Of a stretch of DNA of 38,283 nt, positions 7,103 to 38,013 are shown piece after piece; positions within the stretch are counted from its first letter, which is position 1, and every line of letters begins with the position of its first letter. A program made the position numbers and the translations under genes. The notes below the pieces were generated by a model. The model was not told where the DNA came from and did not search any database. It saw only the letters and a list, made by a program, of their open reading frames with translations. The DNA is taken from NCBI GenBank assembly GCA_963204705.1, contig CAUJHL010000009.1:1-38283 (forward strand), written 5' to 3'. This DNA is from Pseudomonadota bacterium. GTDB lineage: Bacteria > Pseudomonadota > Gammaproteobacteria > Pseudomonadales > Moraxellaceae.

Positions 7103-10100
7103 GTATGTCAACGGTGGCCTTGCAGGAAGGGCAAAAACCCGCAGTGCGCTTAGGTGAGTTGTGCCCGGAGCTGCCGCTGAATGCCGATCTCGGTGCTCTG
7201 CCCATTCGGCGAGTGGTCAGCGATAGCCGCAAGGCCACAGCGGACAGTCTGTTTTGCGCGCTGTTGCCCGCACACCCCAGTGGCCAGCCCCTGCAGGCGG
7301 AGCTGCACCGCGAGCGGCTGAGTGGTTTTGCCCGCTCGGCCATTGGACAGGGTGCGACTGTGGTGCTGAGCCAGATTGCGCTCACCCTTCCCGAGACTCC
7401 GGATGTACCGGTCATCGTCGTGCCGGAGCTGCCGGAATGGGTGGGGCTGTTTGCTCGCCGCTGTCTGCAGGCGCATCATCCCGTTACCCCTATGCGCGTC
7501 GCGGCAGTAACCGGAACCAATGGCAAAACCACGATTTGCCGGTTACTTGCTGAAGTATTGACGCTGGCCGGCCATAAAACCGCTGTGCTGGGCACCACAG
7601 GCAATGGGATTTTGCCGGCACTGACTCCTTCCAGCCATACCACGCTGGATGCGGTGACTTTGCAGGAATATTTGCACGAATTTGCGGTGCAGGGTGCTGA
7701 ATTTGCCTGCATTGAAGCCAGCTCACACGGGCTGGATCAGGGCCGTTTGCAGGGTACGCCGATTGAAGTGGCGATGTTTAGCAATCTGACCCACGATCAC
7801 CTGGATTATCACCAGACCATGGCGCATTACGCAGCAGCCAAGGCGCGGCTGTTCGATCCTGTACGATTTCCCAGTCTGGCCAGTGCCATCGTGAATGCGG
7901 ATGATCCCCAGTCGGCCGTGCTGACCAGTCATATGCCAGACACCCTTCCGGCATGGCGGTACAGCCAGCAAGCCAATGGTGGTGCTGAATTCCGTGTCGT
8001 GGATGCAGAATATCAGCTGACGGGAGCGGTTTTGACGATCGAGACCCCGGATGGTCCCAAAGTGCTCAACAGCCCCTTGCTGGGCAAATTCAATGTGTCC
8101 AATTTACTGGCGGCGGTGGCCGCGGCGAGGGCACTCGGTCTGAGCTGGGAAAGCGTGCAGTCCGCGGTGCCTCAGCTACAGGGGGCGCCCGGCCGGATGC
8201 AGGTGGTGGATGACCCAGACCGGCTACTGGTCGTGGATTATGCGCACACGCCAGACGCACTCCAGCAGGTACTGAGCAGCCTTAGGCCACATACTGCGGG
8301 GCAGTTAAGGGTGGTGTTTGGCTGTGGCGGTGACCGTGATCGCGGCAAGCGTCCCCTGATGACCGAGATTGCGCTGAATCATGCAGATCATGTCCTGCTG
8401 ACCAGTGATAATCCGCGCAGTGAGCCGATTGGCCGCATTTTGGATGACATGATTGCGACGCTGGATGAATCCCAATTGGCAAGAATCCAGGTACAGCAGG
8501 ATCGGCGCATGGCGATCCGTCAGGCTGTGAGTCAGGCTAAAGTCGGTGATGTCGTGGTGGTCGCGGGCAAGGGCCACGAGGACTATCAGGAAATCGAGGG
8601 CGTCCGGCATTGGTTTGACGATGTGGTGGAGTTACGACAGGCACAGACAGCCTGTCTGGATGACGCTAGCCGTCTGGGGTATGCCGCCACCGCGTTTTCT
8701 TCCCCCGCCCCGTCTGGAGCACTGAGGATCAACCCCATGGTATCGACACCATCGCCCCTGTCACCAACATTGCCAGCTACGAATTTGTCGCCTATGACCT
8801 TGCCTGAGTTACAGGCGGACGTTGCGCCCTGGAATCCCGATACCCTGCAACAGGCAACGGGTGGGGTATGGCAGGGTGATCTGTCGCAGCCCATTAGCGC
8901 CTGGCGAATTCAGACCGATACCCGTGCGATTCAGCCTGGAGATATTTTTCTGGCGCTAAAAGGCGAGCGTTTTGACGGCCACCAGTTTGCCCTGCAGGCC
9001 ATTGCAAAAGGAGCTGTGGCGCTCCTTGTCAGCGAGACCTTGCCAACCCCGGCTCCGCAACTGGTCGTGAGCGACACACGTCTGGCGCTTGGCCAGTTAG
9101 GGCAATATCACCGCTTGCGCATGCCGGATCTGAGCGTGGTGGCGCTCACGGGTTCCAGTGGTAAAACCACCACCAAGGAAATGCTGGGCAGTATTGTGTC
9201 GCTGGCCGGCCCGACACTGATGACGCGGGGCAATCTGAATAACGATCTTGGCGTGCCCATGATGTTGCTGGAGCTGATGCCCAGCCATCGCTATGCGGTC
9301 ATGGAGCTGGGTGCCAATCACCGGGGTGAAATCGCCTATACCACCCAGCTGGTGCAGCCACAGGTGGCCGCGGTGCTGAATATTGGCACAGCGCATCTGG
9401 GTGAGTTTGGCGGCCGTGAAGGCATTGCCCATGCCAAAAGTGAGATTTTTCAGGGACTGTCGCCTACCGGCATTGCGGTATTGCCCCGGCAGGTGGATTA
9501 CAGTGAAATTTTGCAGGAAGCCGCCCAGAACCAGCCGATTCTTGAATGGGGCGACGGCGCGGAAGTGTGTGCCAGTGATATTGAATTGCTCCCAGACAGC
9601 AGCCGGTTTGTCCTGAATTATCAGAGTGCCCAGCAACCCATTCAGTTGCCGTTTGCAGGTCGGCACAATGTGGATAATGCGCTGGCAGCGGCCAGCATGG
9701 CGCTCGCGCTGGGTATGACGATGGACATCATTGCGCGCGGACTGGCCAGCGCCACCACGATTAAGGGCAGGTTGGTCTTTCATCGGAAGAATGGCATGAC
9801 CCTGATTGACGATACCTATAATGCCAACCCTCATTCGGTGCTGGCAGCGGCTAAAGTGCTCAGTACCCAGGCGGGCCAGCGCTATCTGCTGCTCGGTGAT
9901 ATCGCCGAACTGGGTGAGGAATCGCGGCAGGAGCATTACCGGCTTGGTACCCAGCTGGCTGCACTCCCTTTGGCCGGTTTGCTGTGTGTGGGGGAGTTTG
10001 CACCCGATACCGTTGCCGGAGCACAGGCCCATGGAATGGCCGCGGCGCAGGCATTTGAAAACAAAGAAGCCTTACTGGCTCAACTTCAGACGCGGCTGTC

Positions 10101-10191: not shown

Positions 10192-11309
10192 TGTTGCTGT
10201 GGTTATTTGAACAACTGGGACATTATTTCCCCTTGTTTCTGGTATTCAAGTATTTGACGCTGCGGGCAATGCTCAGTGTACTAACGGCATTCAGCCTGAG
10301 TTTGCTGCTGGGTCCCATGGTGATCGAACGTCTGCGCGCGCTCAAATACGGTCAAGCCATTCGCACAGATGGTCCGCAGTCGCATCTGGTAAAAACCGGC
10401 ACACCCACCATGGGTGGCATCCTGATCCTGGGCGCCATTGGTATCAGTACCTTGCTGTGGGCAGACCTGCGCAACCCTTACGTCTGGATTGTGCTGATGG
10501 TGATGGTAATTTTTGGCGCCGTGGGCTGGATGGACGACTGGCTAAAAATCAGATACAAAAACCCCGACGGTCTGGCGGCACGCAAAAAATACTTCTGGAC
10601 CTCAGTAGGCTCGCTCGGGGCAGGCATCGCGCTGTATCAGATTGCCATCCACATGCCAACTATTGCCCAGACCCATGCTATGGTGGATTTGCTGATTCCG
10701 GTATTCAAGAATCTCAGCATTCCGTTTTCGGCGGTTCCATTTGGGCTGGCCTTTATTGCCTTTACCTATTTTGTGATCAACGGCGCCAGCAACTCGGTCA
10801 ACCTCACCGATGGTCTGGATGGTCTGGCGATTATGCCGGTGGTCTTGGTTGCAGCCGGACTGGGTACCTTTGCCTATCTGACGGGCGATGCCCGCTATGC
10901 AGCCTATCTACACATTCCCTACATCAGTTTTTCCAGTGAGCTGGTCATTATCTGTACGGCGATTGCGGGTGCAGGCATGGGATTTCTGTGGTTCAACGCC
11001 CATCCGGCACAAGTCTTTATGGGCGATGTGGGTGCACTGACACTGGGGGCTATGCTGGGCACGATTGCGGTAATGGTTCGACAGGAAATCGTCTTTGGCA
11101 TCATGGGTGGGCTCTTTGTGGCCGAAGCCATTTCGGTGATTTTGCAGGTGGGCTCGTACAAAATGCGCAAAAAGCGAATCTTCCGTATGGCGCCATTGCA
11201 CCATCATTTTGAGGAAAAAGGCTGGAAAGAGACGCAGGTGGTCGTGCGTTTCTGGATCGTCACCATCATTCTGGTGGTCTTGGGGTTGATGACGCTGAAA
11301 ATTCGTTGA
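10191..11309 (+). CDS. mraY: phospho-N-acetylmuramoyl-pentapeptide-transferase MraY
   Basis: [45 protein letters not shown]. Confidence 0.96.
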
Positions 11310-11502
11310 GGGGTTTTCGCGGAGTCGGCTATTCTACGAACTGACTGAAGTTGTTTAGGCCAGATTTTTTGATGTCTGTCCATTCCTTATTTGGGGTAAT
11401 TTTGACTCGACAAGGCTACCAAATAGGCATTTTGTCAGCCTTTTGTCATACTCCGCCACGACACTAGCCGTCATTCCCTCGGATGTTTCAGGAGTGACGG
11501 TC

Positions 11503-12246
11503 ATGACGACCATGGCGATCCCCATCGCTCATTTGGGTGCTGCACCCGCCTCACATTCCCACAGTGAGCTGTATTATTGCCGTACGCCCGAAGGTCAGGT
11601 AGAGCTGGCCAGTCGTAGCGGCATTCTATCCCCCCGATTACGCCAGCTACTGGTATTGATCGGACAGCCGGATGGAGCACAGAACGCGCTGTTCCGTGGT
11701 CTGGCCACCCCCGAACGTCTGCAGGCGCTTTTGTCTCTGGGTTTCATTTCTTCGCTTCCGATGGCGGAATGGAGGGGTCGGGAGCTGCCTGCCACACCTA
11801 CGCTGATGGACACACAGACAGGCTCGCAAGCGGACATGCCCGCACAGTGGAACATCACACTGGCCGAATTGAGTCAGGCCCTGTATGAGCCCCACGATGA
11901 AAAGCAGTATGAACCCCAGCAGGTACCACAGGAAACGCCACCACCCGTTCCAGTGCATGCTCCAGCGACTGCAAAAACCTCGCAACTGCTTGAAGTAGCA
12001 GAATTGCCACTGGACGGTTTGCCCAGCCTCCAGCATTTTATGTCGCACTGCCTACAACAGGCCTGCGGATTGTTGGCGGCCAGTCAGATGATGGATATCG
12101 ATCGTGCGCATGACCTGCAGATGCTGGGTCGATTGCAGGCACGCTGGAAAATGACCTTGCTGGATTCGCGCTACGATCGCATCGCTCTGGAACGGTGGAT
12201 CGCGCGGGTACGCGAATCGTTCCAGCTACTGCAGGGCGATTACTAA
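11503..12246 (+). CDS. hypothetical protein
   Basis: ORF 11443..12246; ATG at 11503 (MTTMAIPIAHLGAAP) after a likely promoter/leader region. No recognised domain. Confidence 0.6.
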   Translation: MTTMAIPIAHLGAAPASHSHSELYYCRTPEGQVELASRSGILSPRLRQLLVLIGQPDGAQNALFRGLATPERLQALLSLGFISSLPMAEWRGRELPATPTLMDTQTGSQADMPAQWNITLAELSQALYEPHDEKQYEPQQVPQETPPPVPVHAPATAKTSQLLEVAELPLDGLPSLQHFMSHCLQQACGLLAASQMMDIDRAHDLQMLGRLQARWKMTLLDSRYDRIALERWIARVRESFQLLQGDY

Positions 12247-23409: not shown

Positions 23410-24615
23410 TTATTTAGACCCGGCTTTCCAGCGGAATCCAAACCCGTAGGCCGCATCCAGTTCAGGATGACCCTCAAAATAACGAATCAGCCGCTGCACC
23501 TGCAAACTGCCTTGCTGGTTGCTGATTTCAGCAATAGCGCACATGCCCAGTGAGCTGGTTTCATTGAGCTGCACTTCGATTTCCGGTTGATTGGGAATCA
23601 GGATTTTGACCACGCCATCGGTAGCTGCCCAGTTGGGTACCCCTTCATAAATAAAGGCAAAAATCACGATCCGCTTGATCTTGTCCCAATGGCGACCATT
23701 GATGTGCAACCATTCGCCGTCGCTGTTTTGGCCGGTACGATCATCGCCCTTGAGCTGCATCCAGGGAAATTGATCAAAACTGCCAAAGCGGTTACCGAGT
23801 GCCTGAATAACACTGCCTTCCCCGTTTTGCATCTGGAACATACAGCCCAGATCCAGGTCAATGCCACTGGATTTACTGCCCAGCAAACCGCCAAAAAGCC
23901 CTTTGCTGCCACTATTCGCCCCAGCACCCCGGTTCCAGTTGAGATTGATGCGAATCTGGTCAAAGGAACTACCCTGCTTTTCCAGCCGGATGGTGCTGTT
24001 GGACTTGCTAAGGCTCACTTTACTGAGGGAAATTTTGGCAGCAGGAGCAGGAGCAGGAGCAGGAGCAGGTGCAGGTGTGGGAGCTGGTGCAGGGGCAGGG
24101 GCTGCAATCTCCACTCCAAAATGTTCTGCAAGCGGCTGCAACCCACCCTCAAAGCCCTGAACCACTAGTCGGAATTTCCAGCTACCATTACGGCGATAGC
24201 ATTCGCCGACGATGAGAGCGGCTTCCTGTAAATTTCGGGTATCAATGTCTGCCTGGGCAAATACGCCCGTGGGACCTGACAGCGTGATGCTTAACTGTTG
24301 TAATTCCCTAAAGCGATGGGGATTATCCAGCGTGGCACAGAACGCAATTTTACCCACGGCGGCTTCAACAGGCTCCAGATTGAGCTGAAACACCGTTTCG
24401 CTGCCCTGCTGACACATACTGACCTTGCCACTCGCGACACTGGTCTGGTTATAAAACACCATGTCGTGGTCGCCGCGCACTTTCTGGGTGCTTTCGGCCA
24501 GTAAATAGGCAGACAGATCGGCACTTGGGCTGCTGCCGTGTTGTTGGAGCGTCAGGGTAACGGTGCCTGCGGGCATGGCAACATTGGCGCCGGGGATCAG
24601 GGTAGTGATGCTCAT
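23410..24615 (-). CDS. TerD-domain and TerA-like two-domain protein with Ala-Pro linker
   Basis: N-terminal TerD fold (VRGDHDMVFYNQ, ALIVGECYRRNGSWKFRLVVQGFEGGLQPLAEHFGVEI), (AP)n linker, second TerA/TerZ-like domain (SLSKSNSTIRLEKQGSSFDQIRINLNWNRG..IDLDLGCMFQM). Confidence 0.85.
   Translation of the reverse strand: MSITTLIPGANVAMPAGTVTLTLQQHGSSPSADLSAYLLAESTQKVRGDHDMVFYNQTSVASGKVSMCQQGSETVFQLNLEPVEAAVGKIAFCATLDNPHRFRELQQLSITLSGPTGVFAQADIDTRNLQEAALIVGECYRRNGSWKFRLVVQGFEGGLQPLAEHFGVEIAAPAPAPAPTPAPAPAPAPAPAAKISLSKVSLSKSNSTIRLEKQGSSFDQIRINLNWNRGAGANSGSKGLFGGLLGSKSSGIDLDLGCMFQMQNGEGSVIQALGNRFGSFDQFPWMQLKGDDRTGQNSDGEWLHINGRHWDKIKRIVIFAFIYEGVPNWAATDGVVKILIPNQPEIEVQLNETSSLGMCAIAEISNQQGSLQVQRLIRYFEGHPELDAAYGFGFRWKAGSK
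24040..24110. repeat. short tandem repeat (gcagga-type hexamer) encoding the Ala-Pro linker
   Basis: ggcagcaggagcaggagcaggagcaggagcaggtgcaggtg..ggggcaggggctgc. Confidence 0.8.
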
Positions 24616-24778: not shown

Positions 24779-25732
24779 TCAGGCTTCTTGCCACGACCGG
24801 CTTGGCCCCGGCCAGGCAATCAACTGATCCTCTGTCCCCGCCAGTCCATACATGGCGGCACGGGCAACCACCCGCTGCGCCCATGCCCGGTGAGTGGCCG
24901 GTTCCAGCATGGCTCCCTGCTGCTGAAAAACGGCATCTGCCGTAGGACGTAAAATGGCCTGGGCAGCTGCATGATCCAGCGGGTCAACCTGTAGGGCACG
25001 GTGTACCGTGTCAATCTGACACGGGTGGATGATGGTTTTGGCACTCAGGCCATGCAGCAAATCCTGAACCAGTTCCTGCTCCAGCAGGGCGCTATCCTGA
25101 AAATATTCACAGACGGGCGCTGTCAGGGCGAGGCCTGAAGGTAGAAAAATCCCTGCCAGCTGGGCAATCAGCGGGCCAATCGGCGTCTGATAAAGGGTGA
25201 ACTGGCGAGGCCGGCGCAGACCCAGACAGGCCAGCAAGTCATTGCCCCCAATGCGCAGGGCAAGAATTTGGGCGGGCTGCTCAAGCAAACGATCCCGCAA
25301 GTCACGCATGGCACCTGGATCAAACACACTGGCACTTTCCAGGGTAGGCATGATCAGCAGCTCGGGTAAAACACTGCGGCGCCAGCTTTGCTCTGTGCTG
25401 GCATCAAATTTGGGCAGCACCATGCCATCAATCTGGTGAATCAGGGGCCATTCGCACAATTGCGCTGCCATTCGCGGGTGACGGGGGCGAACAAAAATCA
25501 GCGGAGCACCCGGCTGGCGCGGACAGGTCGCCAGTCGATGCAACAATTGCTGCAGGTGTGCCAGACCCTGCGGCAGATCCGATTCGGCGACGGCATCTTC
25601 CAGACAAATGACTAGCGACCTCAGTGCAGGGTATTTACTGCCACTGACGGCATCCCAGAGATCCGTGCGAGTCGCGGGCATATAGAGGGTGGCGCCCAGT
25701 GACAGTGCAGTGAGAGGAAGGCTGGCGCTCAT
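24779..25732 (-). CDS. HpcH/HpaI aldolase / citrate lyase (CitE-like) family protein of Ter cluster
   Basis: GATLYMPATRTDLWDAVSGSKYPALRSLVICLEDAVAESDL; PLIFVRPRHPRM; ILALRIGGNDLLACLGLRR. Confidence 0.8.
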   Translation of the reverse strand: MSASLPLTALSLGATLYMPATRTDLWDAVSGSKYPALRSLVICLEDAVAESDLPQGLAHLQQLLHRLATCPRQPGAPLIFVRPRHPRMAAQLCEWPLIHQIDGMVLPKFDASTEQSWRRSVLPELLIMPTLESASVFDPGAMRDLRDRLLEQPAQILALRIGGNDLLACLGLRRPRQFTLYQTPIGPLIAQLAGIFLPSGLALTAPVCEYFQDSALLEQELVQDLLHGLSAKTIIHPCQIDTVHRALQVDPLDHAAAQAILRPTADAVFQQQGAMLEPATHRAWAQRVVARAAMYGLAGTEDQLIAWPGPSRSWQEA

Positions 25733-26001
25733 GATCAGTGCTGGTCTCTTAACGAATGGCAAGGGTTTGGGCGTGTCTGGGCGTTATTCATGGTTCTTAG
25801 TGATTTAGCCAGTGATTTAGTCAGTGCATTAAGCAATCATTGGGTCAGTCAACATTCAACAAAGGATAGTCAGCACAAAAAATACAAGCGCTGACAGAAT
25901 CTATGTCTGCTTCCGGTCACTGCGGGCCACGATGGGTTATGCCCTGTGCAAAACGGGCGGATACGGATGAATATTACCCAAATTTAATCTTTGTCGCCGA
26001 A

Positions 26002-27216
26002 TTATTCTGTGCCTGACCGACTCGCAATCAGGGTGACCGCCTGATAGGGCCCCAGACGTTCACCCAATACGTCGACACCCGTGCCCAGCTCACTGGCCAG
26101 CGCTCTCAGGGCGGCCGTTTCTGGCGCATCAGCGGTTTTTAACAAAATCCGGTCGGGTGCTCGTCGTAACAGGGCGCGGGTAGCCTCCGCCAGCCCGGGT
26201 TTAATGCGATTACGATTGCTGATTTGGTAATGTTCAGCGAGTGCATTAATCGTTTCACGGGACCAGCGTTGTTGGTGAAGTCTATCGGTCTCGGACCATT
26301 GAGCGGGCAGGCAGGCAGGATCACCGGAAGAAACCAGCGCCTGTCGTAACTGATCCAGATGCTCAATGACTCGCTGGCTTTGATCGTGGGGAGCCAGCTC
26401 GGGGTAGCTGGTACAGCCATGCCAGTCCGTGGGAGTGTCCTCCAGACAGACACTACGGGACAGTAGGCCAGAGACGGTTGCTCCCATCAGGCCGGTAGGA
26501 ATCAGCCAATCCTCCGCGCTGGCACACAGCCAGGCTTCGCCGGCGGGATCGGCGAGCGTCACCAGTCGCAGGCGTCCACACTCACGGGGAAAGCGATTAT
26601 CCCCTGCCAGGCTGTGTTCCAGTTCCTGACTGATCGCCCCTTTACCGGTCCAGCCATCGACGAAATAGAGGGTCTGGGCCCCATGGCGACTGACAATTGC
26701 CTCCAAAGCCAGCGCATCAATTCCGCGATCCCTGAGAATACTAATCCCATAATGCACACAGGGCATTCCCAGTGAACGAATGGCGCGTGCCAGCAAAATC
26801 CCCAACGGAACGCCAGCCCGTACCAGACTGACCAGCACCAGAGGATTGGGGGACCGCCCGGCAGGCAATGATTGAGACTGATAATGGCTCACCAGTTGCA
26901 AGGCCAGCTGTTGAACTTCCCGTACCATACGCTCACCCCCTTGGGCCAGTGCTTGCTGAAACGCAGAAGCCAGCCGATCCGAAGGCGGGGATTCCCGCGT
27001 GATCATGCGGGAGTAATGTTGTTGGCCGGTTTGAATAAGACGTTCCTTTTCCGCAATCGGGGTGCTTTCCAGAGTCAGGAGCCGCAACAAGAATTGGACT
27101 TCACCTATGGAGTAGCTGCCTGTGAGGGCGCCAGGCAGGGCGTCATGCAGGCTATTAGACTGGTCAGAGCTGTCGAGCTTTTCAGTCGTTTCGGCAGTGA
27201 CGGTTAGTTTAGTCAT
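26002..27216 (-). CDS. StiP-like (PRTase-type) protein with C-terminal PELOTA-like domain, Ter cluster
   Basis: YSIGEVQFLLRLL..., LVSLVRAGVPLGILLARAIRSLG.PCVHYGISILRDRGID, YFVDGWTGKGAISQEL, C-terminal RNRIKPGLAEATRALLRRAPDRILLKTAD. ATG 27216. Confidence 0.75.
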   Translation of the reverse strand: MTKLTVTAETTEKLDSSDQSNSLHDALPGALTGSYSIGEVQFLLRLLTLESTPIAEKERLIQTGQQHYSRMITRESPPSDRLASAFQQALAQGGERMVREVQQLALQLVSHYQSQSLPAGRSPNPLVLVSLVRAGVPLGILLARAIRSLGMPCVHYGISILRDRGIDALALEAIVSRHGAQTLYFVDGWTGKGAISQELEHSLAGDNRFPRECGRLRLVTLADPAGEAWLCASAEDWLIPTGLMGATVSGLLSRSVCLEDTPTDWHGCTSYPELAPHDQSQRVIEHLDQLRQALVSSGDPACLPAQWSETDRLHQQRWSRETINALAEHYQISNRNRIKPGLAEATRALLRRAPDRILLKTADAPETAALRALASELGTGVDVLGERLGPYQAVTLIASRSGTE

Positions 27217-28063
27217 GCCAATACCCTCCGGCCTGCTCAAGGTGGCTGGCCAGCTGTTGCCCAACCCAGTGATCCAACTGACTGGCTGCCGGCATGCCCC
27301 ACCAGTCACACTGCTGTAAAAAGGCACAATCCGACAACGAGTCTCCGAGACCAATCACCGGTTGATCCGGCTGGGAGATTTGCGGGAGCAGATAAGCCAC
27401 TGCCTCTGCTTTACCAATCCCTTCAGGAATCAGCGCCAGCGTGACGCCATTGCGATGCAGATAACAGCCAGCCAGCAGTTCTGGCGGCAGCCACTGCATA
27501 AACTCGGTGAGAAATAAGGGTAAGTGGCGAGACTGGCGAACCACGCCGTACACAATCAGGCCATTTTCCCGTTGCAATTGAACGCGCAAGGCATCCATGG
27601 GCAGTGTCTGTCCGGGGAAATGGGCGGCTAAAAACGTGAGGCCCAGTTCTGGCAGGGACTCATACCATGTCGTCAGACTGGCTTGTAAGGGCGTTATGAG
27701 CGACAGGGTCCGTTGCCACCAGACCGGATCCGGCTGGTCAGGCTGCTGTAAAATGACAGCGCCGTGTGCACAGATGGCTGGAAAGGGCAGCTCTAGCTGT
27801 ACGCGTGCCAGGCCTTCACTGCTGCGTGCTGTCACCGGAACCAGCCGGGCATGCTGCTGGAGCCAGCGCCACCAGTGCCACTGACGGGCAGACATCATCC
27901 CCAGGGGCTGGCCGTGCTGATCATGGGTAGCGGTCGCTTTTGGGTCGAGTCCCCTGCTGGCCAATCGACGGCCAGTCTGAAACAGGGTGTCGTCCAGATC
28001 GACCAGAAAAAGGGGAGGCAGTGGAGAGTCTGACAACTGCGTGGCGAGGGGCAAGCTAGTCAC
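27209..28063 (-). CDS. HAD-superfamily phosphatase of Ter cluster
   Basis: LFLVDLDDTLFQTGR, PVTARS, PVIGLGDSLSDCAFLQQCDW. GTG start overlapping the upstream TGA (GTGA). Confidence 0.8.
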   Translation of the reverse strand: MTSLPLATQLSDSPLPPLFLVDLDDTLFQTGRRLASRGLDPKATATHDQHGQPLGMMSARQWHWWRWLQQHARLVPVTARSSEGLARVQLELPFPAICAHGAVILQQPDQPDPVWWQRTLSLITPLQASLTTWYESLPELGLTFLAAHFPGQTLPMDALRVQLQRENGLIVYGVVRQSRHLPLFLTEFMQWLPPELLAGCYLHRNGVTLALIPEGIGKAEAVAYLLPQISQPDQPVIGLGDSLSDCAFLQQCDWWGMPAASQLDHWVGQQLASHLEQAGGYWHD

Positions 28064-29415
28064 GTCTCCTTGCCCCCCAGCACGACTAGCCCTGGCAAGG
28101 CAGCCAGCAAGGCGGGGTCTACACTGGCTGTGTCTGTTTCTACCATCAGGAACATGCGGTCGTAGTCCGCAGGCACAATGTTGTACACAAAATTGGGCAT
28201 GCCAAGTCCGTAATTGTCCTGAAATGCCAGCTGGTGCTGAATGGCGTGTCCGCGCGCGATGGGGGATCTGGTGGTGGCAGCAACAGAGACCCGAGCTCCC
28301 TGTCTGGCCAATGCCTCTGCCAGCAGGAATGGCGGCCACACGTATTCACTACTGCCCAGCACCAGAATGCGTTCACCGGGCTGTGCCTTCAGCAGCGGCA
28401 GTTTTCCCTGATCCGTAAGGCCTGTCGGCACCCGTCCCCAGTCGGCGGGACGGCAAATTGGCCATGCACCGCGGGCGACAGTATCGACCTTAGGCATCTC
28501 GGGCAGGTCGGCACGCGGATTATCCTGCCAGCGCCAATGCCCCTGTAACAGACTCACCCGCTGCCAGTGAGGAAATGCGGGAAACACAGGTTGCGACCAA
28601 TCGGTCAGGGTCGCTGTGATGATATGTTCTAACTGATCGAGTCCAGCGGATTGCAGGGCGGCGACCAGATGCTGAAAAGTCTGACCCGTTGAGGCTTCAT
28701 CATCTACCAAAATCAGGCTCCGCGTAGCCAGTAGCCGCTGCTGTACCTCAGGGTCAGGCGATCCATAGAGCAAATGCGCTGGCGCATGGCTGTGGGTTTC
28801 CTCAAATCGGCACCACAGTGGTGCCTCAGCGTCGGGCAGAGGATGGCGGGTACTGGCCAGGTACAGTGCCTCGGGATAGGGGCCTTGCCGCAAGGCTCGA
28901 TGCACACCGGCGCCGAGCGCAACGGCTGTTTCTGCCATGCCAATCACCAGCACCGGCCCGGGCAAATGGGTGGGAATGCGGGCAGCCAGTGCATTCCAGG
29001 CCGCATTCATGCGCTCGGGAGAGACCGGGATGTGACGCCCCAGCACTTTCGAGACAAACAGAAAAGCCCGACGAGGGTTGATGCGTTCGGCAAACCCAAA
29101 CAGCGCATCGGCTGTCCAGCCATCCGACGGCGAGCTGGGGGTGTCATTGTCTCGGTAGGGCTTGCTTTCGCGGTCGTTGCGCTCACCGCCCTGAACGCTG
29201 GCTGTGGAGGATGTCGGGTTAGATGTCGCGGCGGGAAGCAGGGTTAACTCAAGAATCCCGCGAGACAGTACACAAGTGCTTGTCACAGAAAGGCTGGAAG
29301 CCAGCACAGGATCAGGAGTATGGTCTGGTGAAAAATCAGACTGGGGGTCATCCAGGCGCTCAGGCAGAATGTCCGGTAGCGCGTCCGGCTGGGAATCAGG
29401 CAAAGAAACAGTCAT
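28060..29415 (-). CDS. phosphoribosyltransferase with TRSP-type C-terminal domain, Ter cluster
   Basis: VLVIGMAETAVALGAGVHRAL, SLILVDDEASTGQTFQHLVAAL (PRPP-binding loop), ERILVLGSSEYVWPPFLLAEALARQG, IQHQLAFQDNYGLGMPNFVYNI. Confidence 0.8.
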   Translation of the reverse strand: MTVSLPDSQPDALPDILPERLDDPQSDFSPDHTPDPVLASSLSVTSTCVLSRGILELTLLPAATSNPTSSTASVQGGERNDRESKPYRDNDTPSSPSDGWTADALFGFAERINPRRAFLFVSKVLGRHIPVSPERMNAAWNALAARIPTHLPGPVLVIGMAETAVALGAGVHRALRQGPYPEALYLASTRHPLPDAEAPLWCRFEETHSHAPAHLLYGSPDPEVQQRLLATRSLILVDDEASTGQTFQHLVAALQSAGLDQLEHIITATLTDWSQPVFPAFPHWQRVSLLQGHWRWQDNPRADLPEMPKVDTVARGAWPICRPADWGRVPTGLTDQGKLPLLKAQPGERILVLGSSEYVWPPFLLAEALARQGARVSVAATTRSPIARGHAIQHQLAFQDNYGLGMPNFVYNIVPADYDRMFLMVETDTASVDPALLAALPGLVVLGGKET

Positions 29416-29477: not shown

Positions 29478-30788
29478 TCAGCGCTCACACTCCAACAACC
29501 ACACCGATCCTTGTGCCTGTCGCACCATGGTATTGCCGCTTTGGGCAGAAACCGGCGGGGCCGTAGGGCTGGGGAAATGACTCGGGTCGATATCCGCCGA
29601 TTCCAGCAGGGCCGCAATCAGCTGGTGGCGTACCGCAAAATTCATGTTTTGTGCTGAACTGATGCTGGAAATCGCCATGGCGATGACCTGGCCCTGGGTA
29701 TTCAGCAGCGGGGATCCACTGGATCCGGGCTGTATGGGGGCGGTGAATTGCAAAAAGCGCAAATCCTGATTAATACCCCGCAACGCGGCAATACATCCCT
29801 GCGTCACCTGCAACTGGTTTCCCATGATCCCGGAGAGGGGGTAGCCTAGCGTGGTGAGAGACTCGCCCAGGGACAAGGGCACGCTCTGGGCCAGAGTCAG
29901 CCATTGTTTCAGGGGGGCGTCGTTGTAGGGAGTGTCCAGCTTTAACAGCGCCAGATCGCAGCCTTCATCCAGCGTAATGACCTGTACGGCAAAGCGTCCC
30001 TGCAGAGACTGCGCCGTAATGCGGCGGGCCTGATCGGCCACATGGGCACACGTCACCAGATGACAGGGTGAAATGGCAAAAGCGGTTCCGGTCCAGGCGT
30101 CTGGCAGCGGGTTGCCGTGACGGTCATAGCCCGGTCGGCGCTCACCATTGCCCGGCTGGCCTTGACCATGGCCCGTATTTCCTGATGCGCTGCCCTGCGA
30201 TAAAGTGCGGGGCGAACGCTCATCCAGTGCCAGTTGCATCCGCAGGCCCAGCGCAGCCAGACCCATAGGCGACCCTTCGGCCAGCGCACGCATTTTCCAT
30301 TGATTCTGGCGCAGGTAAATTTCCAGACAGATCATCGCGCGATCGGCACTTTGGTCAATGGCAGGCACATAACAGACGTGGTCAGCACCCGACGGCCCAG
30401 TCAGGCAGTTTAGGCTAAGCTGAGCGCCAGACTGCTCAAGAGTGCCGGTCTGGTCGTAGCGATAGGCCACCAGCAGCAAGTGGCGGACGCTAGCAAAGCG
30501 TTGCTGCAGTTGGGCCAAATCCAGTTGCCACTCCGCCTGTTGCGGATTGCCCTCAATCTGGATCCAGTCGGGCACTTCGTGCAAATACGCAGGCGCCATC
30601 ACCGGTTTGCGCGCTTCGTCCAGCACCAGCCAGACCAGCCCCAGCTCCTCTGCCAGCCAGTCCCGGTTTGCCCCGCGCGGACTGGAAAGGGTGGCTTTCA
30701 GGCAAAGACGGGCTTGGTCGGGCAGGGTCGTATTGGCACCCGTTACCAGCTCGGTGGCAGAGGCTGAAGGGGGGTTAGGGGGGGTCAT
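29478..30788 (-). CDS. TerD-domain fused to trypsin-like serine protease
   Basis: N-terminal TerD features (LLLVAYRYDQTGTLEQSGAQLSLNCL.., CLEIYLRQNQWKMRALAEGSPMGLAALGLRM). C-terminal protease triad CAHVAD (His), DEGCDLALLKLD (Asp), QPGSSGSPLLNTQGQVIAM (Ser). Confidence 0.85.
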   Translation of the reverse strand: MTPPNPPSASATELVTGANTTLPDQARLCLKATLSSPRGANRDWLAEELGLVWLVLDEARKPVMAPAYLHEVPDWIQIEGNPQQAEWQLDLAQLQQRFASVRHLLLVAYRYDQTGTLEQSGAQLSLNCLTGPSGADHVCYVPAIDQSADRAMICLEIYLRQNQWKMRALAEGSPMGLAALGLRMQLALDERSPRTLSQGSASGNTGHGQGQPGNGERRPGYDRHGNPLPDAWTGTAFAISPCHLVTCAHVADQARRITAQSLQGRFAVQVITLDEGCDLALLKLDTPYNDAPLKQWLTLAQSVPLSLGESLTTLGYPLSGIMGNQLQVTQGCIAALRGINQDLRFLQFTAPIQPGSSGSPLLNTQGQVIAMAISSISSAQNMNFAVRHQLIAALLESADIDPSHFPSPTAPPVSAQSGNTMVRQAQGSVWLLECER

Positions 30789-31900
30789 CCGGTGACTCCT
30801 TCTGGCTGCTGGGCGCGTGGCGTGCCCGGCGGGCTGTTGCGGTCCGGTGCCGGAATGGGGATGGGCAGGTCAACGACCCGCACCCATAGTGGCTGTAAGT
30901 AATTGATCGGTAAGGAAATTCCTAGCCGGTTGGCCACCATGATCGCTGGCAAATTCAGGCCACACGCCAAACCATAGCCAATCCCGCCCGAAGGACGGGC
31001 ATTGATTTCAAGCAGATGCGGCGTGCCGTCAGCGTCTTCGCGTAACTGGACATTGACCAGTCCGTCGCACTTAAATTCGTCCACAGCACGCACGGCCAGA
31101 TCGACGACCGCCTGTTCACGCGGGGTGACGTGGTGTGTCTGCTCCGGTAACCAGGGGCTGATATGCTGCATGCTGTCAATCTTGGTCCGGATCGCGGCAG
31201 CCAGCGTCTTGCCGTCAAGCACGACCAGATCGACGGAATATTCCTGCCCTGATAAAAAGGGCATCACCAGATAGGGCTTGGGATCCAGCGCATAAGCCTG
31301 AACAAATTGTTCAGGATGGACCTGTCGGTTATCGGGCTGCGCAAAGGCATAAAAGGGACTGACTTCGGGGTTGAGCACCCAGAAACCCGCGGCATACACG
31401 CCCTTGACTGGTTTCACGCACAGCCGTTCGTTGCCGGCTGCGGCCATGGCTTGCTGCAGCTCGTCCCGACTTCGCACCACGGTGGCTGGTGTTACTGCCA
31501 GTCTGGCGTGTTCACAGCGCTGGATAAACAGGGCCTTGTCATCCATGGCCTCAAAATCTGCCAGTGAGAGTGCGCCACTGATCAGCTGGCAGCCTGACTG
31601 TGCCAGCGCCTGACGCAGAGGCTCGTAATCGCGACCGGATTGTCCGGCATGCAGCAGGCTGATGTTATGCACTCTGACCTGTTCCATCACCCAGTCCAGC
31701 CGTGCCCGTTTGCCCATGGGTTCCTGCAGGGCATGATCGGCCAGGGACGTTATTTCCGGGCGATGCTGGGCATGGGAGGCCAGTTGATATAACTGAGGCA
31801 GCGCCGAACGGGTCGCTTTGATCAGCTCCCGCTGGCTGGCATGCCCTTTTAACCACCAGAGGCTGGGGGTTGAGGTAGAGTGCGCTATCGGGGTCTGCAT
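30785..31900 (-). CDS. ATP-grasp family protein of Ter cluster
   Basis: LCVKPVKGVYAAGFWVL, YLVMPFLSGQEYSVDLVVLDGK, CDGLVNVQLREDADGTPHLLEINARPSGGIGYG. Confidence 0.85.
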   Translation of the reverse strand: MQTPIAHSTSTPSLWWLKGHASQRELIKATRSALPQLYQLASHAQHRPEITSLADHALQEPMGKRARLDWVMEQVRVHNISLLHAGQSGRDYEPLRQALAQSGCQLISGALSLADFEAMDDKALFIQRCEHARLAVTPATVVRSRDELQQAMAAAGNERLCVKPVKGVYAAGFWVLNPEVSPFYAFAQPDNRQVHPEQFVQAYALDPKPYLVMPFLSGQEYSVDLVVLDGKTLAAAIRTKIDSMQHISPWLPEQTHHVTPREQAVVDLAVRAVDEFKCDGLVNVQLREDADGTPHLLEINARPSGGIGYGLACGLNLPAIMVANRLGISLPINYLQPLWVRVVDLPIPIPAPDRNSPPGTPRAQQPEGVTG

Positions 31901-32297: not shown

Positions 32298-32330
32298 CTG
32301 TACACGGATTTTTAAAAAAGGATCAGCGTG

Positions 32331-32906
32331 ATGGCACTCAGTCTTTCCAAGGGCGGCAATCTCTCACTCAGCAAAACAGACCCCAGTCTCAAGCGCATTT
32401 TGGTGGGACTCGGCTGGGACCAGCGGGCGACCGATGGTAATGAATTTGACCTCGACGCCAGTGCATTTTTATTGACCAGTCAGGGTAAAGTGCGAGGCGA
32501 GCACGATTTTATTTTTTACAATCAATTGCGTGCTGCGGATGGGTCGGTAGAGCATACCGGCGACAATCGCAGTGGCGCAGGCGACGGTGATGATGAAGTC
32601 ATCAAGGTCAATTTGGACAAGATTGCCGCGGATGTGGATAAAATCGCCATTACCGTGACTATCCATGATGCGGAGAGTCGCCGACAGAATTTTGGCCAGA
32701 TCGCCAATGCGTTTATACGCGTTGTGAATGAAGACACTAATGCAGAAATTGTCCGTTTTGACCTCGCGGAGGATTACTCCACCGAAACGGCCATGATTTT
32801 TGGGGAAATTTATCGCCATAACGGTGAATGGAAATTCCGCGCCGTGGGTCAGGGTTATGCGGGTGGATTAGCGGCCATGTGCGGCCAGTTCGGGCTTAAC
32901 CTCTGA
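32331..32906 (+). CDS. terD: TerD family protein
   Basis: [89 protein letters not shown]. Confidence 0.93.
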
Positions 32907-33055
32907 GGGCTTGCGACCTTTTCAGCTCAGACAATGGCAGACTCTACCCCGGGTCTGTCGCGTGTACCTGCGATACGATTTATGACAAACGAAACATTAA
33001 CTTTCTGTCATTATTGGGCTCCAAACTCTGCGTTCGGGGTTTTAGTGGATTTAAC

Positions 33056-34123
33056 ATGATGAAACATTTTGGTTTTTCGATCGCCTTTTCGGTGATCTGT
33101 CTGGCCATTGCTGGCTATTGGGGCCTGTCGCATGGCGGTGTCAATGCCATGTTGTCAGCTCTGTTTATCACGGCCGTTCTGGCGGTGATGGAAGTCTCCC
33201 TGTCCTTTGACAATGCGGTGGTCAATGCGTCCGTACTGCGGGACTGGGACGAATTCTGGAAAAAGCTGTTTTTGACCGTGGGTATTCTGGTCGCAGTGTT
33301 TGGTATGCGCTTGCTGTTCCCACTGGTGATTGTGGGCGTTACGGCCGACATGGGGCTGATGGAAGTTGCGCGGCTGGCACTGGATAATCCCAAAGAGTAT
33401 TCCGCCAAACTGATTTCGCACCATGAAGAAATTTCCGCCTTCGGGGGGATGTTCCTGTTGCTGGTATTCCTGAACTTTTTCTTTGATGACAGCAAGGACG
33501 AGCACTGGTTCCACAGCCTGGAAACTCGTCTGGCCAAGCTGGGTAGTATTGACGCCATGTCGATTTTTGTCGCACTGGTGGCCTTAATGCTAATGCTGGG
33601 TCTGGTCGAGCCGGCAAAACAGTTCGTAGTCCTGAGCGCAGGCCTCTGGGGCATTATCGTCTACGTCGGGGTCAATGTACTTGGCTATATGCTGGAAGGC
33701 AGCGACGACGAAACGCTGAAGGACGGTGAAGACACGCCAGTTGCCTCACCGGGCAGCAGTAAAGTGGTCAAGGCGGGTATCGGGGGTTTCCTGTACCTGG
33801 AAGTGCTGGATGCGTCGTTCAGTTTTGACGGCGTGATCGGCGCATTTGCCATTACTAATGACGTCATCATCATCATGCTGGGCCTGGCTATCGGCGCTAT
33901 TTTTGTGCGTTCCATGACGGTGTATCTGGTGGAAAAGGGTACGCTGGATGCCTATCAGTATCTGGAGCATGGAGCGCATTATGCGATCGGTGCACTGGCG
34001 GCGATTATGTTACTGAGTATGAAATTTCACATTCCAGAGGTCATTACCGGACTGATTGGGGTGGCATTTATCGTGTGGTCGGTGCTAGCCTCGATTGCAC
34101 AGCGAAAACGCGAGACGGCATGA
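33056..34123 (+). CDS. TerC/DUF475-like integral membrane protein
   Basis: Polytopic; VMEVSLSFDNAVVNASVL, EVLDASFSFDGVIGAFAITNDVIIIMLGLAIGAIFVRSMTVYLVEKG (duplicated acidic TM motifs of the TerC superfamily). Confidence 0.85.
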   Translation: MMKHFGFSIAFSVICLAIAGYWGLSHGGVNAMLSALFITAVLAVMEVSLSFDNAVVNASVLRDWDEFWKKLFLTVGILVAVFGMRLLFPLVIVGVTADMGLMEVARLALDNPKEYSAKLISHHEEISAFGGMFLLLVFLNFFFDDSKDEHWFHSLETRLAKLGSIDAMSIFVALVALMLMLGLVEPAKQFVVLSAGLWGIIVYVGVNVLGYMLEGSDDETLKDGEDTPVASPGSSKVVKAGIGGFLYLEVLDASFSFDGVIGAFAITNDVIIIMLGLAIGAIFVRSMTVYLVEKGTLDAYQYLEHGAHYAIGALAAIMLLSMKFHIPEVITGLIGVAFIVWSVLASIAQRKRETA

Positions 34124-34174: not shown

Positions 34175-34750
34175 ATGGCAATCAGCCTGCAAAAAGGTGG
34201 CAACGTCAACCTGTCCAAAGAAGCCCCTGGCATTCAGAACGTCACTATCGGCCTCGGCTGGAACCCTCGTGCAACTGACGGTCAGGCCTTTGACCTGGAT
34301 GCCGTTGTGTTCATGCTGGGCGCGAACGACAAAGTTCGCAGCGATGCAGATTTCATCTTTTACAACCAATCCAAATCCACTTGCGGCTCAGTAGTGCATC
34401 AGGGCGATAACCGCACGGGCGATGGCGATGGCGATGATGAAACTGTCCTGATCGACCTGTCCAAAGTGCCTGCGGATGTCAACAAGGTGATTTTTGGTGT
34501 GACGATCCATGATGGCCAGCAACGTGGCCAGAACTTCGGTCAGGTCAGCAATGCCTACATTCGTGTAGTGAACAATGCCGGTGGCAGCGAAGTCGCCCGT
34601 TATGACCTGTCTGAAGACAGCAGCACCGAAGCCGCGATGATTTTCGGTGAGTTGTACAAAAACAACAATGAGTGGAAATTCCGCGCCGTTGGCCAGGGCT
34701 TCCAGGGGGGCCTCGGCCCGCTGGCAGGCTCTTATGGCGTGAATGTCTGA
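34175..34750 (+). CDS. TerD family protein (TerD/TerE-like)
   Basis: [71 protein letters not shown]. Confidence 0.93.
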
Positions 34751-34864: not shown

Positions 34865-35596
34865 ATGCCTACATTTAGTCTGGTGGGTACCCCGGATCCT
34901 TTTTTACATGTCACCATGCGCCGGGGCGAAACCATTTATTGCGAAAGCAATGCCATGGTCATGATGGAAGACGTGCTTGAGTTGAAAGGCAAACTGCAGG
35001 GTGGGCTGGTCGCGGCCCTGGCGCGTCGCTTTGCCAATGACGAATCCCTGTTTCAGCAGCATATCGAAGCCGTACGTGGTGATGGTGACTGTCTTCTGGC
35101 CCCGACGCTGGATGGGGATATGCAGATACTCGATGTCGGTCCACGGCAGTACACCCTGAGTGATGGGGCTTTTGTGGCCGCGACCAGTGGGGTCGATATC
35201 AAGGTCAAAATGCAGGGGCTGGGTGCTGCCCTCTTTGGGGATACCGGTGGCTTTCTAGTGATGCATACCAGCGGTCAGGGCCAACTCGTGGTCAACGGCT
35301 ATGGCACCTTGTTTGAAATCGACGTGGTGCCGGGCAAGGACACCCTGATCGACAATGGCCATATCGTGTGCTGGGATTCCACGCTGCAACACGAAATGTC
35401 GGTCTCGACCACCCGTGGCGGCATGATCGGCAATCTCGTCAATAGCCTGACCAGCGGCGAAGGCATGATCATGCGATTCAAGGGGCAGGGCAAGGTGGTC
35501 GTGTGCTCACGCAACCGTAACAGCCTGCTGACCTGGCTGACTTCCAAGCTGCCGGGGATGAGCAATAACAACAGCAATAGCCAGCGTCTGTTTTAA
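34865..35596 (+). CDS. AIM24 / TIGR00266-like family protein
   Basis: MRRGETIYCESNAMVMMEDVLELKGKLQGGLVAALARR..FVAATSGVDIKVKMQGLGAALFGDTGGFLVMHTSGQGQLVVNGYGTLFEIDV. Confidence 0.75.
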   Translation: MPTFSLVGTPDPFLHVTMRRGETIYCESNAMVMMEDVLELKGKLQGGLVAALARRFANDESLFQQHIEAVRGDGDCLLAPTLDGDMQILDVGPRQYTLSDGAFVAATSGVDIKVKMQGLGAALFGDTGGFLVMHTSGQGQLVVNGYGTLFEIDVVPGKDTLIDNGHIVCWDSTLQHEMSVSTTRGGMIGNLVNSLTSGEGMIMRFKGQGKVVVCSRNRNSLLTWLTSKLPGMSNNNSNSQRLF

Positions 35597-35677: not shown

Positions 35678-36265
35678 ATGGCACTGAATCTGGAAAAGGG
35701 ACAAAAGATTTCCCTGAATAAAGAAGCGGGTGGCGCACTGTCCATTGTGCGGATGGGTCTGGGCTGGGATGTGGCCAAATCCAAGGGCATGCTGGGAGGC
35801 CTGTTTGGCGGCGGAGGTGACAGTATTGATCTGGATGCCTCCTGCCTGATGTTTGATGAGCAAGGCAGCCTGAAGGATGTGGTGTGGTTTCGCCAGCTGC
35901 GCAGCAATGATGGCAGTATTCAGCATTCCGGTGACAACCGGACGGGCGCCGGGGATGGCGATGATGAAACCATCACGGTCGATCTGAATAAAGTGCCTGC
36001 GACGATCAAGACGCTGGTATTTACCGTGAACAGTTTTTTGGGCCAGAGCTTTGACAAGGTCGCCAATGCGTTTTGTCGCGTGGTGAATCATAGCAACAAT
36101 CAGGAAATCGCCCGCTATAACCTGTCCTGTCAGGGAGCGCATACCGCGCTGGTCGTCGCCAAGCTATACCGTCACAACGGTGAGTGGAAAATGGCGGCAC
36201 TGGGCGAAAGCTCCAGCGGTCGTACATTTAACGATATGATGCCGGTGATTACGGGTCATCTGTAA
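35678..36265 (+). CDS. TerD-family protein, TerZ-like
   Basis: ISLNKEAGGALSIVRMGLGWDVAKSKGMLGGLFGGGGDSIDLDASCLMFDEQG..VFTVNSFLGQSFDKVANAFCRVV: the LFGGGG insert is typical of TerZ. Confidence 0.85.
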   Translation: MALNLEKGQKISLNKEAGGALSIVRMGLGWDVAKSKGMLGGLFGGGGDSIDLDASCLMFDEQGSLKDVVWFRQLRSNDGSIQHSGDNRTGAGDGDDETITVDLNKVPATIKTLVFTVNSFLGQSFDKVANAFCRVVNHSNNQEIARYNLSCQGAHTALVVAKLYRHNGEWKMAALGESSSGRTFNDMMPVITGHL

Positions 36266-36805: not shown

Positions 36806-37234
36806 TCAAAAAAATAACTTTATGATCTTCACATTCGCAAGAATTTCCGATCCAATCATCCAAAACCCATTAATTCCCTCTTTGATCCTCTCTTCATGAT
36901 ACTTTTTGTCCCCAAAGATCCACATGTTCGCAACACCCTTATTCTTTATAGGAGTTTCTTTATCTAAAATAATATTACCATTATCATCTAAAATCTCTGG
37001 ATAAATCATATAATTTACATTTTCACCCTCGTAACGAAAATCACAGCGCATTCCTTGAAAGGGTTTCACACCTTGCAACCGAGGAGAAATATTAAGAACA
37101 TACTCAACTTGAAAATCTGGTTCAGGACGATCAAGCCACCCATATGGATGATGTACACTTGATTGATTATGCATTTCCTCACGCTTAGACATTAAGTCTC
37201 GTATAAGCTCTTCACTTAATCCATATCTATTCAT
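36806..37234 (-). CDS. putative cognate immunity protein of the Rhs toxin
   Basis: 142-aa AT-rich ORF immediately downstream (8-nt gap) of the Rhs-CT toxin ORF on the same strand; position typical of immunity genes. No recognised domain. Confidence 0.65.
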   Translation of the reverse strand: MNRYGLSEELIRDLMSKREEMHNQSSVHHPYGWLDRPEPDFQVEYVLNISPRLQGVKPFQGMRCDFRYEGENVNYMIYPEILDDNGNIILDKETPIKNKGVANMWIFGDKKYHEERIKEGINGFWMIGSEILANVKIIKLFF

Positions 37235-37242
37235 TTTCTTTC

Positions 37243-38013
37243 TTACCGATTAAACGTCTGTATAAACTTCCAGCCACCCATTTTATCCATATCTAGATTA
37301 AATGCAGGCAACATATAATTTGGAACTGTTACAATTGGCCCAATTCCCGGCTCATAAGCATTATGATCTAGAGTATTGTACATCTCCTCTGAGATGAAAG
37401 CATTGGTCAGATGAAATCTAGGCTCAAATCTAAAAATGAAGTCACTCCCAAACTTAACTGCTTCATCATCTGTATGAAAGAATTGCTTAGGAAATGCATT
37501 AGGCCCTAGACTATAACAGCCACATAAATACATTTGTGCAAGCTCTGCATCCTCAACAACCCTAGCCAACTTCACAGGCTTTTGGTCTTTTTTCTCCAGT
37601 TTTTCTTTAATGTTTTTATATACTTGAGTTCCTTTTCCTGACATCCATGCAACAGTTAACCAGCCAATTTGAATTGGTGTATACCCAACATCTGTCGAAC
37701 TACCATGATTAGATAACTCTTGCCCTGGAGAATAAGAAACTGCTATAGCACTGGCCGCCAATACACCCATTATTTGTAACGCAGCACTTGACTCTCCCAA
37801 ACTCATATACCCACTCGGATCGGTATACATCACCGGATTCGCATTGGCATACAGATACTTATTCAACGTAATCGGCGTACAGCCTTTACCCTCCCACGTA
37901 TCCATCTGCGTGAATCGACCAATACTTTGATCATAATAACGAGCGCGGTTGTAATAGACACCCAAGTCTGAATCATACTGCTCTCCTGCATACTTATACG
38001 CACTGGAGGTACT
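37243..38013 (-). CDS. Rhs core C-terminus with variable toxin domain (orphan Rhs-CT), possible ADP-ribosyltransferase-like toxin
   Basis: AYKYAGEQYDSDLGVYYNRARYYDQSIGRFTQMDTWEGKGCTPITLNKYLYANANPVMYTDPSGYMSLGE (Rhs core end) followed by a divergent ~190-aa tail with ARVVEDAELAQMYLCGCYSLGPNAFPKQFFHTDDEAVKFGSDF. ORF track start 37965 is an internal TTG codon; the reading frame continues upstream to the repeat end at 38013 with no upstream Rhs core. Confidence 0.75.
   Translation of the reverse strand, partial: STSSAYKYAGEQYDSDLGVYYNRARYYDQSIGRFTQMDTWEGKGCTPITLNKYLYANANPVMYTDPSGYMSLGESSAALQIMGVLAASAIAVSYSPGQELSNHGSSTDVGYTPIQIGWLTVAWMSGKGTQVYKNIKEKLEKKDQKPVKLARVVEDAELAQMYLCGCYSLGPNAFPKQFFHTDDEAVKFGSDFIFRFEPRFHLTNAFISEEMYNTLDHNAYEPGIGPIVTVPNYMLPAFNLDMDKMGGWKFIQTFNR
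37856..38013. repeat. 158-bp direct repeat copy B (Rhs core end)
   Basis: About 95% identical by eye to 36429-36586. Confidence 0.85.

Follow-up and report, generated by a model that had tools for sequence, protein, structure and literature searches.

A TerD-like domain fused to a probably active HtrA-like protease is encoded among Ter genes and has lost the calcium ligands of TerD

A single gene in the window (the whole stretch of 38,283 nucleotides analysed here) encodes a TerD-like domain followed by a trypsin-fold protease domain, and structure modelling confirms that this fusion is real. The fusion is probably a cytosolic protein and, as far as its residues tell, probably an active protease. 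We give an even chance to its being a TerD-tethered cytosolic protease that works on Ter assemblies and cuts Ter-associated or stress-damaged protein. Its metal-free TerD domain, of the type found in the N-terminal half of TerA (TerA-N), would dock it at TerC on assemblies of TerD, TerA, and TerZ, where the HtrA-like domain, which has no PDZ domain, would then cleave such proteins. The folds of both domains, the invariant catalytic triad, the association with ter genes, and the co-occurrence with PRTase_2 speak for this; the analysis also shows the loss of the Ca2+ ligands and the dispensability of the fusion in relatives. Counted against it are clusters without the fusion (L189 and L115–L117), a copy in genome G015 that is not beside ter genes, and the finding that terCD alone confer tellurite resistance in Escherichia coli (PMC8779313).

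The original prediction gave no strand for the gene; it is read from the minus strand, and the plus strand of the same interval is stop-rich. Its ATG (30786–30788) overlaps the stop codon of the ATP-grasp gene as ATGA, as had been predicted, and an AAGGAG motif lies 7 nt 5′ of the ATG at 30796–30801, both read off the sequence. AlphaFold (AF2), run with an alignment of 36 sequences, gave a full-length model with a mean pLDDT of 77 and a pTM of 0.53, in which the linker has low confidence, whereas residues 1–194 modelled alone reached a pLDDT of 88 and a pTM of 0.84. Comparison of the models with Foldseek recovered a TerD fold for residues 1–194 and an HtrA-type fold for the remainder; given the confident model of the TerD part and the Foldseek matches for both parts, we regard both domains as real. 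Homologues from sequence collections and whole genomes (57 full-length, 58 sequences with that of the window) have a mean identity to the window protein of 46% in the protease part and 33% in the TerD part. The Gly-rich linker that had been described holds for the window protein, but this long Gly-rich form is peculiar to it: at 40 residues its linker is the longest in a family ranging from 14 to 40 (median 17). There is no signal peptide, the maximum 17-residue Kyte–Doolittle mean in the first 45 residues being 0.38 compared to 2.76 for a TerC control, which supports the cytosolic location first proposed.

The assignment of the N-terminal part to the TerD fold was upheld by structure comparison. 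The Pfam TerD match (PF02342) in the window protein is marginal and covers residues 100–180 only (E = 3.7e-6, 27.0 bits, cut-off 25.3); homologues of the main family score 24.7–48.7 bits, with one under the cut-off and one without a listed match. At E ≤ 0.001, residues 1–194 matched nothing in the PDB but the TerD structures 3ibz, 2kxt, and 2qz7 and the chain 9a6r, all with E from 7e-10 to 2e-6; we infer 9a6r to be a TerD-family chain. The Foldseek TM-scores to solved TerD structures were 0.57–0.66. In profile comparisons with hhalign, the fused domain matched the N-terminal half of TerA over its full length (E = 4e-21), canonical TerD at 4e-15, and TerZ at 3e-6; thus by profile it is nearest to TerA-N among the profiles compared. 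Both share the TerD fold, an N-terminal L.PGaN motif, and the absence of the GDNR..GDGDDE loop; TerA differs in that almost every copy retains the DxD of Ca site 1, and in having a second TerD-like half in place of the protease. Canonical TerD, TerE, and TerZ proteins (Klebsiella pneumoniae TerD, 2kxt; Streptomyces coelicolor, 3ibz) share the fold at 13–17% identity in structural alignment, and differ from the fusion in their Ca2+ ligands.

The original prediction suggested that a Ca2+-responsive TerD module could regulate or localise the proteolysis. K. pneumoniae TerD does bind Ca2+ (cited in PMC8779313), through residues 40, 41, 42, 78, 79, and 89 and residues 29, 82, 84, and 88 (PMC8779313), and these ten positions are retained in 95–100% of canonical TerD and in 100% of TerZ-like proteins. 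In contrast, all ten are lost in all aligned fusions, with the alignment over the missing loop being approximate: in most fusions Y/A/A or Y/A/G stands in place of DLD, and the GDNR..GDGDDE loop is missing. No acidic cluster able to replace the ligands was found in the fusion-family alignment. Because none of the ligand pattern is left, the Ca2+ hypothesis is unsupported; we reject Ca2+ sensing by the fused domain, and Ca2+ control of the protease is very improbable. As read from the alignment, the domain is of a metal-free type without Ca2+-binding residues. The TerD fold is thus separable from Ca2+ binding, an attribute often assumed for TerD proteins.

The three protease motifs first quoted, CAHVAD (H249), CDLALLKLD (D278), and PGSSGSP (S357), are all in the fusion protein, and Pfam places Trypsin_2 at residues 234–371 (E = 6.4e-22). 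The triad was described as intact, and this extends to the whole homologue set, in which the oxyanion Gly355 and Q380, N381, and N383 of a QNxNFAV motif are likewise the same in 58/58 sequences. That the domain is a catalytically dead pseudo-protease serving as a binding module is hardly credible against such invariance of triad, oxyanion glycine, and QNxNFAV motif. In the full-length model the protease fold matches the HtrA, HhoA, DegS, and MucD proteases (E about 1e-10). HtrA/Deg proteases (DegS, MucD, HhoA, HTRA1) have the fold and triad in common with the fusion, and most bacterial members carry a secretion signal or membrane anchor; the fusion has neither these nor a PDZ domain, and adds the TerD-like front domain, the QNxNFAV motif, and a C-terminal tail. 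A Pfam scan found no PDZ domain, and the protein stops about 38 residues past the protease domain. We count this tail as belonging to the protease, since one like it is found in L169, a related protease that has a hydrophobic signal-like N-terminus and no recognised TerD domain. The position equivalent to trypsin residue 189 is a proline (P351, counted back from Ser357); therefore, ‘trypsin-like’ denotes the fold only, and a preference for Arg/Lys is argued against.

The minus strand of the window carries, in order, genes for ATP-grasp, the fusion, PRTase-TRSP, HAD, StiP-PELOTA, a C-C lyase, and TerA, and the plus strand genes for TerD, TerC, TerD, AIM24, and a TerZ-like protein (Table 1). The fusion is thus encoded among ATPgrasp_Ter, PRTase_2/TRSP, HAD, StiP, and C-C lyase genes, and its placement inside a Ter biosynthetic operon is correct for the window; as a general rule it fails, since copies in the genera g7 and g10 adjoin TerZ/AIM24/TerD/TerC genes (L130, L131, L132, L191, and L193). 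Pfam calls the StiP protein a cysteine protease, but 13 homologues share no invariant cysteine (best column 10/13); a conserved FVDGWTGKGAI motif resembles a PRPP loop. Its profile comparison with the PRTase of the operon was not significant (probability 1.6%), and its PELOTA C-terminal part matches L7Ae proteins weakly.

Table 1. Features of the fusion protein and of the surrounding Ter genes in the window
Feature	Position	Strand	Basis
TerD-like / trypsin-like protease fusion, 436 aa	29478..30788	-	ORF reading, Pfam
TerD-like domain, residues 12–193, TerA-N type, Ca2+ ligands lost	30210..30755	-	Pfam, profile comparison, AF2, Foldseek
Gly-rich linker, residues 194–232	30093..30209	-	AF2 pLDDT <50 at 199–221
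HtrA-like trypsin-fold protease domain, residues 233–398, no PDZ	29595..30092	-	Pfam, fold comparison
Catalytic His249	30042..30044	-	58/58 sequences
Catalytic Asp278	29955..29957	-	58/58 sequences
Catalytic Ser357 in PGSSGSP	29718..29720	-	58/58 sequences
Conserved C-terminal helix-strand tail, residues 418–436, W430 in 57/58	29481..29537	-	Model, alignment
ATP-grasp (ATPgrasp_Ter, PF15632), upstream partner, ATGA overlap	30785..31900	-	Pfam, sequence
PRTase_2 + TRSP, downstream partner	28060..29415	-	Pfam
HAD phosphatase (S6PP-like), ORF start probably too long	27209..28339	-	Pfam
StiP + PELOTA_1 protein	26002..27354	-	Pfam
C-C bond lyase (PF15617)	24779..25762	-	Pfam
TerA-like, two TerD-like halves; N-terminal half is the nearest compared profile to the fused TerD domain	23410..24615	-	Pfam, profiles
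Canonical TerD/TerE	32328..32906	+	Sequence, Pfam
TerC	33014..34123	+	TerC annotated in same gene set of pRBL16
Canonical TerD	34175..34750	+	Sequence comparison
AIM24-family protein	34865..35596	+	Pfam
TerZ-like TerD-family protein	35678..36265	+	Sequence comparison

The same fusion architecture was found in many Proteobacteria and is nearly always linked to ter genes, either in the biosynthetic operon or beside TerD/TerC genes. Pseudomonas, Pseudomonas megaplasmids, and a small number of related genera share the order ATP-grasp, fusion, PRTase with the window, and Burkholderia shares its fusion–PRTase part. A PRTase gene lies directly downstream in 49/51 full-length loci from Pseudomonas, Burkholderia, Oceanobacter, and Marinobacterium; the two exceptions are a divergent PRTase gene in Parachitinimonas and a locus that stops at a contig end. 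Pseudomonas plasmid records matching the fusion number 126, are annotated ‘trypsin-like peptidase domain-containing protein’, and include a copy on pRBL16 beside terZABCDE. The laboratory strain Pseudomonas putida S12 also has a homologue, on its plasmid. Among 50,697 phage records there was no full-length match, and a phage origin is rejected on this ground. In the window's taxonomic family (149 genomes), 30 genomes have the fusion, 59 have PRTase_2, and 28 have both; PRTase_2 is present in 28/30 genomes with the fusion versus 31/119 without (Fisher p = 9e-12, without correction for kinship). A count of operons based on ATPgrasp_Ter gave no information, as the profile also matches other ATP-grasp enzymes.

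Several copies and clusters depart from this arrangement. In one g7 genome (L194) the fusion adjoins ATP-grasp, with the other biosynthetic genes absent in the stretch read, and the G015 copy (L127, from a genome that is 68% complete) has no adjacent ter genes. PRTase_2 clusters scoring over about 170 bits numbered 12 in 399 genomes of the phylum, that of the window included, and the fusion was not found in the stretches read round the other 11 (L115–L125), some of which end at contig ends; in three of the 11, ATP-grasp is followed directly by PRTase. PRTase_2 clusters without the fusion are also present at L188 and L189. Genus g8 has the fusion in the operon at L129 and the same cluster without it at L189, where ATP-grasp lies next to PRTase. 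As L189 and L115–L117 combine neighbouring ATP-grasp and PRTase genes with no fusion, the protein is not essential to the pathway, and its role as a core enzyme of the operon is rejected. Together with the g7 and g10 copies that lie away from the biosynthetic genes, the close relatives with the whole cluster and no fusion lead us to view it as an accessory protease of the Ter system. At L188 (g8), an MFS-like transporter gene on the opposite strand (10817–12109, minus) occupies the ATP-grasp/PRTase gap where relatives carry the fusion, and a similar gene lies upstream of the fusion at L190. At L176 a broken fusion frame (7810–8826, minus) has stops within the match, its open frame ending near window-protein residue 366. 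Genome G739 has two copies with identical protein sequence (L175, 8820–9974, minus; L174, 5187–6341, plus), one of which has just a short piece of PRTase after it.

The steady position between ATP-grasp and PRTase, and the joint presence with PRTase_2 even in genomes that have the two genes at separate places, agree with another reading, in which the operon enzymes (ATP-grasp, PRTase, HAD, and C-C lyase) would make a nucleoside-like compound that the TerD-like domain binds, switching the protease on in the manner of nucleotide-activated defence proteases. This reading is attractive because specialised nucleotide derivatives have been proposed as TerD-domain ligands (PMC7159879) and the fusion tracks PRTase_2. 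W75, E156, Y158, R160, and R167, which are invariant in the TerD part, could line a binding site. However, the remaining operons, sampled in other parts of the phylum, do without the protease, in two genera the fusion sits in the TerC/TerD gene set, and PADLOC matches touch the protease domain only, and we consider it unlikely that the protease is gated in this way. The TerD-like sensor might have traded metal binding for recognition of its own operon's nucleoside-like product, a proposal that we consider more doubtful still; if true, Ter would pair a signal with an effector and so be comparable to nucleotide-gated defence proteases. Among the PADLOC matches, RT-Protease_XI hits the protease domain at 67 bits and the reverse transcriptase is absent here; a known defence system is rejected, the matches being confined to that domain.

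The HtrA-type fold and the flexible linker of variable length would also suit a generic cytosolic protein-quality protease in which the TerD fold is merely an oligomerisation scaffold. A second TerD–trypsin fusion, found in two genomes of the window's class (L172, 3125–4357, minus; L173, 8375–9613, plus), could be cited for this, as it adjoins biotin synthesis genes with no ter genes near. Against it is the strong ter-gene linkage of the main family, and we judge a generic role improbable. The TerD match of the second fusion (92.5 bits) is much stronger than that of the window protein. In a quick tree of the protease domain, the main family falls on one side of a branch with SH-aLRT 87, and a single clade of main and second fusions was not rejected (p-AU 0.34).

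A TerD-Tryp architecture was listed in 2008 for one Pseudomonas syringae protein, YP_273108.1, and called not functionally characterised (PMC2605481). In that protein, too, a TerD module precedes a trypsin domain, a layout shared by the Pseudomonas homologues found here; it was reported on its own in 2008, with neither gene context nor function (PMC2605481), and we liken it by architecture rather than by direct sequence comparison. Our data add that the Ca2+ ligands are lost, that the position of the gene is conserved, that it has an alternative location, and that relatives can do without it, although Anantharaman et al., in their 2012 survey of Ter, may already name the fusion. A conserved protease that is probably active, judging by its residues, offers a handle on the Ter biosynthetic genes, in that its substrate or activator would point to the Ter target.

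Elsewhere in the window, the protein encoded at 37243–37965 (minus) starts with a stretch (GVYYNRARYYDQSIGRFTQMD) that resembles the C-terminus of an RHS-repeat protein and is followed by a variable tail; the protein has no Pfam match. A small ORF (36806–37234, minus) comes after it, and the two are possibly a toxin and immunity pair.
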